Both the position numbers and the translations under genes were made by a program. From Acetobacter cibinongensis (GTDB lineage: Bacteria > Pseudomonadota > Alphaproteobacteria > Acetobacterales > Acetobacteraceae): DNA of 64,000 nucleotides. The stretch is taken from contig NZ_BAMV01000008.1 in NCBI RefSeq assembly GCF_000963925.1, positions 1 to 64,000 on the forward strand, given 5' to 3'. Every line of letters starts with the position of its first letter. Position 1 is the stretch's first letter. A model generated the notes under the pieces. The model saw nothing but the letters and a program-made list of their open reading frames with translations, ran no database searches and was not told where the DNA came from. This document shows positions 51,155 to 54,291 of the stretch, one piece after another.

Positions 51155-51562
51155 ATGGCGCAACTGCGTAAACCAGCATTTCTGCTTCTGGTCGGGTTAA
51201 GTTTTGGTACGGCACTTGCGTCCAGCGCGCCGGGGCAAGCTGTGGCTGATCCCGCCCTGACGCCAAGCGGCAACATCTCCTTTGGGGAAGGGTCAGCCAA
51301 TTATGACCCGGATGGCGCCAACAGCAAAACAGCGGAAAAAAAGACCGTGCACGGGCATCGCAGCCTGCCGCCAGGTTATCAGGATGCACCGTCCATGGAG
51401 TTCAACCACGGGGATGACCCGGATCATCTGGCAAAAGTGCATCGAGATAAAATGACCGGCACAGACCTGTCCCGTTATGGCACCGCCTATCAGGAAAACG
51501 GCCCAATGGGCTCAGGCCAGATGGGTGACGCAACCGGCAACGGCTGGGTAACGCCCCGCTAA
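51155..51562 (+). CDS. Small exported hypothetical protein
   Basis: 135 residues. Signal peptide LRKPAFLLLVGLSFGTALASSAPGQA, cleaved near residue 31. The mature protein is hydrophilic with Gly/Asp/Asn-rich stretches (GEGSANYDPDGANSK, GPMGSGQMGDATGNG). No domain recognised. Convergent with the IMPACT-family gene. Confidence 0.7.
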   Translation: MAQLRKPAFLLLVGLSFGTALASSAPGQAVADPALTPSGNISFGEGSANYDPDGANSKTAEKKTVHGHRSLPPGYQDAPSMEFNHGDDPDHLAKVHRDKMTGTDLSRYGTAYQENGPMGSGQMGDATGNGWVTPR

Positions 51563-51614: not shown

Positions 51615-52220
51615 TCAGGCTTCTGCTTCTTCCACAACGCGGACAACGGTTTGGCCGCTGGTCAGGTCCATGAGCCTGTGGCTCACATCCTGTTGCTGTT
51701 CCAGCGGAATGGTCAGGATGAACTGGGCGCCCGTGGCTGTAAAATCCGGCTGTGCTGCCTCTATTCCCCATTCCTGCAAACGCGCCTGAATGAGGGATAA
51801 GAGGGAGAAGGGCGCATGGAATGTCAGTTTGACCCGTTCGATAATCGGTTCTTTCGGCGCTTCCCGCAAACATTCTGCGGCAGCACCGCTATAGGCCCTA
51901 ATAAGGCCGCCAGCCCCTAGCTTGATGCCTCCAAACCATCGGGTCACCACAACTGCTATCAGGTCCAACTTCTGTGCCGTGATAACCTGCAAAATAGGGC
52001 GACCTGCGGTGCCGGACGGCTCGCCCGCGTCATGGCAACGGCAATGCGGGCCAAACTGCCATGCCCAGCAATGGTGTGTTGCCTCAGGTTCAGCCTGAGC
52101 AATGGCGTGGATAAAGGCTTCGGCTTCTTCAATAGATTTGATAGGCGTTGCACGGGCCAGAAACCGACTTTTGCGGATTTCTAACTCTCGTTCAAACGGG
52201 CCGATGAGTGTTTCTGTCAT
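51615..52220 (-). CDS. IMPACT family protein (YigZ-like)
   Basis: 201 residues from the ATG at 52220 (MTETLIGPFERELEIRKSRF); the frame is open to 52400 but upstream codons cross the divergent gene. YigZ/UPF0029 signature: THHCWAWQFGP, DAGEPSGTAGRPIL, and VVTRWFGGIKLGAGGLIRAY near residues 92-112, with a C-terminal EF-G domain IV-like half. Molecular role not established; homologues bind ribosomes or translation factors. Confidence 0.9.
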   Translation of the reverse strand: MTETLIGPFERELEIRKSRFLARATPIKSIEEAEAFIHAIAQAEPEATHHCWAWQFGPHCRCHDAGEPSGTAGRPILQVITAQKLDLIAVVVTRWFGGIKLGAGGLIRAYSGAAAECLREAPKEPIIERVKLTFHAPFSLLSLIQARLQEWGIEAAQPDFTATGAQFILTIPLEQQQDVSHRLMDLTSGQTVVRVVEEAEA

Positions 52221-52356
52221 GATCGCCGCAGAGTACCAATTTGCAGCGTGTTGCGCAAAGTGGCGGTAGCTTTCCGGTATTGAGACAGGGGACGGAACGG
52301 GGACGCCTCGGGCGCGTTGACGTCGTGCAAACATCTTTAATGCACGGAGACACCCT

Positions 52357-52878
52357 ATGACCGAAGTGACAATGCGCACAATCAACGATATGGGCTCCAA
52401 GGAGTTTATTGAGTGCTTTGGCGGTATTTATAAAAACGCCGAGTGGGCGGCGCAGGAGGCATATGAATGTCGGCCCTTCGCCAGCCTGAAGTCTCTGAGC
52501 ACAACGCTGAGCGCTATGGTGCGTGCAGCACCTTATGATGCCCAACGCCGTGTGTTACGGTCTTACCCCGGTTTGGGTGGCCTGATTGCTGTAGCGTCCC
52601 CTGCGCCTCAGGCCGGTGGGAAGGCCGTTCCGGCTGGGTTGGATCGCCTCTCCCCGGAGGAATTTGCGCAGTTCCGTTCCATGAATAAATCTTACGAAGA
52701 ACGGTTCGATATTCCTTTCATCATAGATTTCTCTGGTCTTACCAAAAACCAGATCATGGCTGATCTGGAGCGGCGGTTGCGGCATGAACCGGAAGTAGAG
52801 CTTGGAGTAGCACTTCTGGAGGTCGGAAAAATGGCGGATCGTGCGCTGCTGGAACTCTACGCAGACCTCAAGCTCTGA
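52357..52878 (+). CDS. OHCU decarboxylase-like (UraD-like) protein, catalytic His missing
   Basis: 173 residues with the UraD fold: CRPFASLKSLSTTLSAMVRAA at 38-58, MNKSYEERFDIPFII at 109-123, and RRLRHEPEVELG. True UraD has a catalytic His in an HPDLAG block; here the block reads SYPGLGG with Tyr70. The Glu of the following EQ motif is also not evident. No other purine-catabolism gene is near. It may be inactive as a decarboxylase or serve another role. Confidence 0.7.
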   Translation: MTEVTMRTINDMGSKEFIECFGGIYKNAEWAAQEAYECRPFASLKSLSTTLSAMVRAAPYDAQRRVLRSYPGLGGLIAVASPAPQAGGKAVPAGLDRLSPEEFAQFRSMNKSYEERFDIPFIIDFSGLTKNQIMADLERRLRHEPEVELGVALLEVGKMADRALLELYADLKL

Positions 52879-53011
52879 CACGGTAATCCGGCAGTTCTGC
52901 CATAACAGGCCCGACCCTTTAGGCAACGGTTGCCGGATTGCTTCCCAGCTCAAAAGAGGGCAAAAGTGAAGGGCATTTAGTTTTTACAAAAGCTGGGAAG
53001 GTTTACGCAGC

Positions 53012-53410
53012 ATGGCGCACCGGGTCCGTACAGGATACCTTCTTCTGGCAGGGCTGTCCGTAGCGTCCCTGTCTTCTTTCCTCACCATTCACCCCGCTAT
53101 GGCACAGGATGCAGATGCGGGCGGCGGCGGCGGTGATGACGATGAAGAAGGCCATAAGGGGCCGGACATGCACAAATTGGCCAAGAAGCCCCCCTTGCCA
53201 CGCGCACACAAGGATTTCAGCAAGTTTCGCTATATCCCGGCTGGCGATAAGGTTGTTGAAGAGGCAGATAAAAACCGCCTTTTCTTCTGGACCAAAGACG
53301 GTCAGCCAGACGGTTACGCGCAACGGCGCGGTGACAGCATTATTTATTATAATGCTCAAGGTCAGGCGATGCGGGTCCAGCGCCTGGAACCTAATGAGCT
53401 TGTCGACTGA
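53012..53410 (+). CDS. Small exported protein
   Basis: 132 residues with a signal peptide (YLLLAGLSVASLSSFLTIHPAMA) cleaved near residue 31. An acidic Gly/Asp stretch follows (GGGGGDDDEEG), then a basic region and a C-terminal domain (VVEEADKNRLFFWTKDGQPDGYAQRRGDSIIYYNAQG). Function unknown; probably periplasmic. GGGAAGG precedes the ATG. Confidence 0.7.
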   Translation: MAHRVRTGYLLLAGLSVASLSSFLTIHPAMAQDADAGGGGGDDDEEGHKGPDMHKLAKKPPLPRAHKDFSKFRYIPAGDKVVEEADKNRLFFWTKDGQPDGYAQRRGDSIIYYNAQGQAMRVQRLEPNELVD

Positions 53411-53423
53411 AAAGTCTGTGTTC

Positions 53424-53458
53424 AAAAAACCTCCTGCCATATGGTCAGGAGGTTTTTT
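53424..53458. terminator. Bidirectional intrinsic terminator
   Basis: AAAAAACCTCCTG (53424-53436) and CAGGAGGTTTTTT (53446-53458) pair perfectly with a 9-nt spacer. T runs on both strands serve the exported-protein gene and the convergent PPDK regulator gene. Confidence 0.93.
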
Positions 53459-53463
53459 GTGGC

Positions 53464-54291
53464 CTAAGGCGTGTCGATCAGGTCCAGAATGGAGGCTGAC
53501 GTCTCTTCAATGGAGCGCCGGGTTACATCAATAACCGGCCAGTTATGGTGCCGGCACAGGCGGCGTGCCCAGCGCAATTCTTCCTGTACTTTTTCCAGGT
53601 CAATATACGCATAATCGGTTGTGTGCTCAGCGTGCCGACCAGTCGGCATCATCTGTGTCAGCCGTGTCCGCCGGATTTCTATGAGCGTTTCGGGGTCTAT
53701 GGTCAGGCCGATAACCGGGCGTTTGATCTCAAACAGCGCGCGTGGTGGTTCAATACCCATTACAAGCGGCACGTTAGCTGCACGAATGCCCCTGTTGGCC
53801 AGATAAAAACAGGTTGGTGTTTTGGAAACGCGAGAAACCCCAACCAGCACAACATCAGCCTCATCAAGGCCGTTTGTTTCCTGCCCGTCATCATGGGCCA
53901 GAACGTAATGCATGGCCTCAATACGCTGGTAGTAGTTTTCATCCATAATGTACTGACCGCCGGGGTGACGTGTGGCTTCCTCCCCCGTTTCTTCAGAAAG
54001 AAACACCATGGCGTTATGCAGCACGTCCAGCAGCCGGACCTGAAGGCTGGTACACCCTGCTTCCATATCCGCTTGCAGCGCCGGGTCTGTCAGGGAGGAC
54101 ATGACAGGCCCTCTATCCAGAGCAATATGGCGTAGCACGCGCCGTAATTGCAGCCGGGAACGAATAAGGTTCCAGTGGCGCAGGCGCACTTCCGTATTAG
54201 GGAACTGCGCAATGCAGGCACGGGCAACGGAGTCCAGTGTCTGGCCTGTGGCTTCAGACACAAGATGCAGGGTCAGGATTTTCTGGTTCAT
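53464..54291 (-). CDS. Pyruvate, phosphate dikinase regulatory protein (DUF299)
   Basis: Bifunctional ADP-dependent kinase/Pi-dependent phosphorylase that switches PPDK or PEP synthase off and on by modifying its Thr. 275 residues, the usual size. P-loop-like GVSRVSKTPT at 151-160 and the N-terminal LHLVSEATGQTLDSVARA are the family signatures. Because ppdK is the next gene upstream, PPDK is the likely target rather than PpsA. Confidence 0.95.
   Translation of the reverse strand: MNQKILTLHLVSEATGQTLDSVARACIAQFPNTEVRLRHWNLIRSRLQLRRVLRHIALDRGPVMSSLTDPALQADMEAGCTSLQVRLLDVLHNAMVFLSEETGEEATRHPGGQYIMDENYYQRIEAMHYVLAHDDGQETNGLDEADVVLVGVSRVSKTPTCFYLANRGIRAANVPLVMGIEPPRALFEIKRPVIGLTIDPETLIEIRRTRLTQMMPTGRHAEHTTDYAYIDLEKVQEELRWARRLCRHHNWPVIDVTRRSIEETSASILDLIDTP

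Follow-up and report, generated by a model that had tools for sequence, protein, structure and literature searches.

UraD proteins and the paralog of Acetobacter

OHCU decarboxylases of the UraD family use three catalytic residues, namely the His of the motif LRxHP(D/E)LA, the Glu of the motif S-x-x-E-Q and an Arg near the C-terminus. Solved structures compared here are those from zebrafish (2o70), Klebsiella (3o7h), Arabidopsis (2q37) and Agrobacterium (Atu2327, 2o8i). In plants, the UraD-HIU hydrolase fusion TTL is reported to have a further role that is not enzymatic, as an interactor of BRI1, besides being an enzyme (PMC2834698). Here we describe a UraD paralog of Acetobacter cibinongensis that is encoded in a stretch of 64,000 nucleotides (contig NZ_BAMV01000008.1, positions 1 to 64,000), which is called the window in the following. 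The paralog is like UraD in its fold and in five further invariant residues, but it has lost Glu26, the catalytic His and the Arg near the C-terminus, and its gene does not adjoin a HIU hydrolase gene. It is also unlike TTL, which has both enzyme activities, whereas the catalytic residues of the paralog are gone. It is very probable that the UraD fold was recruited once, at one site in Acetobacter, to a role unrelated to purines, be it as a pseudoenzyme that serves as binding or regulatory module or as a new enzyme centered on Tyr70. Searches of the open-access PMC literature revealed no account of this Tyr70 clade.

The gene and the fold of its product

The paralog gene is an intact open reading frame with an ATG start and the string GGAG 7 nt upstream. 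The gene and the codons discussed below are located as follows:

52346..52349, + strand: GGAG, likely ribosome-binding site of the paralog, as read in the sequence
52357..52878, + strand: UraD-fold paralog, a putative pseudo-OHCU decarboxylase of 173 aa, assigned by open reading frame, PF09349/TIGR03164, AlphaFold model, Foldseek and VIA
52432..52434, + strand: codon of Lys26, in a column where all of the 150 other UraD have Glu
52564..52566, + strand: codon of Tyr70 (TAC) at the position of the catalytic His, which is Tyr in 10 of 10 paralogs and His in 150 of 150 others
52597..52626, + strand: residues 81-90 (SPAPQAGGKA), the loop that carries S-x-x-E-Q in ordinary UraD; its pairing with the ordinary motif is ambiguous
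52774..52776, + strand: codon of Arg140, the "later Arg", which is conserved and present in all ten paralogs
52843..52845, + strand: codon of Ala163, in the column of the C-terminal Arg; the ten paralogs have A, E, K or V here, whereas 150 of 150 others have Arg

The window protein is the sole PF09349 match in its own genome (3.10 Mb, estimated 100% complete). It belongs to the family by this profile (106.8 bits against a cut-off of 24) as well as by TIGR03164 (118.4 bits against 96.25). Its AlphaFold model has a pLDDT of 88.3 and a pTM of 0.82, and residues 84-88 are the only stretch of at least three residues with pLDDT below 50. Foldseek retrieved 14 PDB chains at E ≤ 0.001 with this model, all of which are OHCU decarboxylases, allantoin synthase or Atu2327. 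With VIA, the model matches the solved OHCU decarboxylases over nearly the whole length (Z 13.8-18.6), led by 5z5m (18.6) and 2o70_C (18.5). UraD structures account for all rows with Z above 8, and no other structure reaches Z 4, the best unrelated row having 3.7. Profiles, model and structure searches thus agree that the fold is that of UraD, as an earlier note made from the DNA letters had proposed. In sequence the window protein is 31-33% identical to Atu2327 and 30-38% identical to the ordinary UraD proteins of Acetobacter, which themselves keep the EHSPW-like, HPEL and S-x-x-E-Q motifs and the C-terminal Arg. With a GC content of 0.544, compared with 0.569 in the window, the gene shows no indication of a recent import. 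A scan of positions 52150-53450 for promoters and terminators gave no signal exceeding that of shuffled sequences.

Catalytic positions in the window protein and its clade

The alignment comprised 109 distinct UraD sequences, of which 10 are members of the paralog clade (window protein included) and 99 are others. The latter comprise 37 sequences of Acetobacter, 59 of further genera within the family and 3 from outside the family. For an extended comparison, 51 further UraD from across the class were added, giving 150 others. Eleven columns, in window numbering, are invariant in all 99 others. Among these, E26, H70 and R163 are changed in 10/10 paralogs and are invariant in the 150 others, too. 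S86, E89 and Q90 are in this alignment changed or deleted in every paralog (one paralog each is deleted at 89 and 90), and they are kept in 149 of the 150 others, with a gap in the remaining one (L226). The five columns L73, Y113, P120, R140 and E148 are kept in all ten paralogs. Window positions 70, 89 and 163 align with positions 67, 87 and 161 of the zebrafish protein, which are presumably its catalytic His67, Glu87 and Arg161.

Residues 68-75 of the window protein read RSYPGLGG, and the catalytic His of LRxHP(D/E)LA is missing. The C-terminal Arg is missing as well, and the Glu of S-x-x-E-Q has no counterpart by either alignment, since the position is Lys89 in the ungapped one and Pro84 if the motif is slid. 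The earlier note had seen both that Tyr70 of SYPGLGG replaces the catalytic His and that the catalytic Glu is not evident, and both observations hold for the window protein. Its statement that the later Arg region is kept is true for R140, presumably a residue of the fold, but not for the catalytic position, where Arg163 has given way to Ala here and to other residues across the clade. An alternative His at the active site can be rejected, since the only His of the window protein is His143, whose column is unconserved and holds Tyr in two paralogs (L008, L009).

How the loop is to be read deserves particular attention. In ordinary UraD, S-x-x-E-Q follows the His at an offset of 13-17 (99/99), most commonly of 17. 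Three of the ten paralogs (L004, L006 and L063) have an S-x-x-E-Q string with an offset of 11, which places it six residues closer to Tyr70 than is most common. As the distance between His and motif also varies in ordinary UraD, this string could be the old motif in a shifted position. At the usual place the Glu is absent from all ten paralogs. Under the shifted reading the Ser is kept in nine, the Gln in six and the Glu in four of them; the window protein is not among the Glu keepers, as it reads SPAPQ at residues 81-85 and has Pro84 instead of the Glu. Glu26, His70 and Arg163 are lost irrespective of this choice. In terms of variability within the clade, columns 26, 86, 89, 90 and 163 rank at percentiles 80 to 100. 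Five random columns reached their summed entropy in only 10 of 20,000 draws. With the shifted reading (columns 81, 84 and 85) this happened in 310 of 20,000 draws, which is weaker, but still unusual. Another variant of this region was seen in L226 (G700:C16, 856 bases), a UraD-like sequence with the catalytic His present and the S-x-x-E-Q loop apparently deleted.

Distribution, insertion site and history

The ten paralogs form one clade (SH-aLRT 100) on a stem of 1.84 changes per site, and all of them have Tyr70; the phylogeny proposed in the earlier note therefore shows that this residue defines a single clade. In a PF09349 survey of 49 Acetobacter genomes the matches separated into 37 ordinary proteins, all of them above 150 bits, and 10 paralogs with 94-120 bits, distributed over 41 genomes together. 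Among 397 sampled genomes of the family, four clade members were detected at E < 1e-50, all of them in Acetobacter, and the next best match had 2.0e-32. A profile of the paralogs gave nothing above 136 bits in 385 sampled genomes of the class, except for the window itself with 298 bits, and in a plasmid search all 229 records with a match stayed under 60% identity.

The genes that surround the paralog in the window are:

51615..52220, - strand: yigZ (yigZ/IMPACT, UPF0029), divergent neighbor and left border of the insertion site
53012..53410, + strand: small protein of 132 aa at the right border; it has no Pfam match and, judged by eye from its signal-like start, is probably exported
53464..54291, - strand: Kinase-PPPase (PF03618) gene, part of the conserved surroundings

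In 10/10 carriers the divergent yigZ lies on one side of the paralog and the small-protein gene on the other; next come the Kinase-PPPase gene and, where the contig reaches that far, PPDK and ligA. We read 30 yigZ loci, consisting of the 10 carriers, 19 scored non-carriers and L117, which is not scorable. In all 19 scored non-carriers the paralog is absent and the two border genes are only 110-355 bp apart. The host genomes of 18 further yigZ matches are without the paralog in the PF09349 survey. The small genes at 51155-51562 and 53012-53410 of the window, both probably encoding exported proteins without Pfam match, flank yigZ in nearly all Acetobacter loci that we read; a gene of the 53012-53410 type was not found in L117. 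One of the 19 non-carrier loci (L113 of genome G090) contains, in the gap between yigZ and the small-protein gene, a decayed C-terminal remnant of the paralog, of which at most 52 codons could be aligned (best tblastn E 1.4e-6).

A tree of five neighboring genes from 30 genomes places the 10 carriers together with G090 and G455 on one side of a branch with 100/100 support. The other side holds 18 genomes, namely 17 that were scored as empty and G035, whose locus is unscored. With midpoint rooting, this tree and the occupancy of the site are best explained by one gain of the paralog and two losses, one in G090, which left the relic, and one in G455. These two are the species of the branch without an intact paralog, and the paralog is therefore not essential there.

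Selection on the paralog

The reading frames of all ten paralogs are intact. The ratio dN/dS was calculated pairwise according to Nei-Gojobori, and pairs with dS < 1.5 were used. For the paralogs this left 15 of 45 pairs, all among six close sequences, with dN/dS of 0.053-0.149. The ordinary UraD of Acetobacter gave 0.028-0.145 in 11 of 28 pairs (eight of the 37 proteins). The paralog L063, which has the same sequence as that of genome G450 lacking ordinary UraD and HIU hydrolase, shows dN/dS of 0.053-0.110 against its five close relatives. All remaining pairs are saturated or undefined. As these include the nine pairs of the window copy (five give 0.148-0.258, four are undefined), the constraint on this copy is deduced from its relatives and from its intact frame.

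Link to the urate pathway

HIU hydrolase (PF00576) is present in 37 of the 49 Acetobacter genomes, which are the same 37 that have ordinary UraD, and by coordinates both genes are adjacent in every one of them. The paralog is found beside HIU hydrolase in none of its ten carriers. The ordinary UraD shares genus and family with the paralog and adjoins HIU hydrolase (e.g., L096), and both proteins occur together in six of the ten carriers. The other four (G000, G023, G450 and G451), including the genome of the window, carry the paralog without ordinary UraD and without HIU hydrolase. The genomic link to HIU hydrolase is thus absent as a fourth feature besides the His, the Glu and the Arg. The window protein is a member of UraD by fold, but judged by these four features probably not a functional OHCU decarboxylase.

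Three families of urate oxidases were searched, PF01014 (uricase), PF06181 (PuuD) and HpxO. The genome of the window has no match to PF00576, PF01014 or PF06181 and no HpxO over the cut-off, and no uric acid genes are among the five neighbors scanned. The latter result agrees with the earlier note, which had seen no such genes nearby and had suggested the genome search for uricase and HIUase. As none of the 49 genomes has a PF01014 or PF06181 match or an HpxO over the cut-off, and as HpyO is a further urate oxidase besides the three families covered, the absence of an oxidase says little on its own. The absence of UraD and HIU hydrolase, unlike that of the oxidase, does inform about the link of the paralog to the pathway. 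It can be noted separately that 37 of 49 Acetobacter genomes have UraD and HIU hydrolase, yet no match to these oxidase families (for HpxO, none over the cut-off).

Possible functions of the paralog

As proposed here, a copy of a UraD gene would have become inserted a single time between yigZ and the gene of the small protein, namely in the ancestor of the Acetobacter branch concerned. The copy would have lost His70, Arg163 and Glu26, and in the window protein also the Glu of S-x-x-E-Q, with the helical fold being kept, and would no longer decarboxylate OHCU. Since the relatives differ in most of the columns that were once key, the old pocket would no longer have a fixed chemistry. Instead, the paralog may serve, without catalysis, as a helical binding protein or as a scaffold, using the positions that are invariant in the clade (W30, A31, A32, E34, A35; CRPF 38-41; R68, Y70, G72, L73; E101; FAQFR 103-107) and may touch a partner protein or a small ligand unrelated to purine breakdown. 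A partner gene was looked for and none was found. From the sequences we lean towards this reading of a pseudo-decarboxylase with a binding or scaffold role, as an enzyme that reuses the pocket would be expected to hold its walls constant. Against it stand the invariant Tyr70 (10/10), which indicates selection in this part of the pocket, the S-x-x-E-Q string of three paralogs, with which the drift argument weakens to 310/20,000 draws, and the two losses within the branch.

Because Tyr70 is invariant, the main rival is a new enzyme in which the cavity is reused for another substrate and Tyr70, perhaps with Lys111 or Asn110, is the acid-base or binding residue. Tyr70, Gly72, Lys111, Asn110 and Tyr113 are the same in all ten paralogs, the strong constraint after a long stem is in keeping with a change of activity, and some members of the clade may have retained a Ser-x-x-x-Gln-like string in the loop. 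Yet columns 26 and 163 vary (entropy percentiles 92 and 87, respectively), the loop varies by either reading apart from one Ser, and residues 84-88 are poorly predicted in the model, so that we consider the new enzyme possible, though the less probable of the two. That the paralog regulates ordinary UraD, e.g., via mixed dimers, would agree with the presence of ordinary UraD in six carriers and with the dimer reported for the crystal form of the plant UraD domain (PMC2834698); it is nevertheless unlikely, because the paralog persists in four carriers, among them the window's genome, that have no ordinary UraD, and the L063 copy from such a genome is still constrained. An OHCU decarboxylase with altered mechanism is very unlikely: the curated TIGR03164 cut-off is passed and part of the clade may keep a shifted S-x-x-E-Q, but His70, Arg163 and Glu26 are lost from all ten paralogs, and the window's genome has neither HIU hydrolase nor any of the three oxidase families searched. 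It is very improbable that the gene is decaying and still awaits removal, for although catalytic residues are lost and the relative G090 carries a decayed remnant, the ten frames are intact and dN/dS among close relatives is similar to that of ordinary UraD. The suggestion of the earlier note that this is a non-decarboxylating member of the family hence holds as far as sequences can tell, given the losses of Glu26, His70 and Arg163 and the persistence in four genomes without UraD and HIU hydrolase. Its second suggestion, a new function, holds in so far as some function is under selection (dN/dS 0.05-0.15 among close relatives), but not with regard to which function this is.

The paralog may be regarded as a lineage-specific pseudo-decarboxylase. 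It offers an enzyme fold that is without the catalytic residues and yet kept by selection, and since its branch, its site, the ordinary paralog and the losses are all visible, the function can be sought in tractable food bacteria. Furthermore, TIGR03164 as an equivalog-type model implies OHCU decarboxylation for a protein that is very probably incapable of it, and consequently a urate enzyme may be annotated in Acetobacter genomes that have no ordinary UraD. As a minor observation on ordinary UraD, its gene and that of HIU hydrolase in L096 (G033:C31, positions 1-2774) lie beside an allantoinase-like gene of the polysaccharide-deacetylase type and a xanthine/uracil permease gene, both named by eye.
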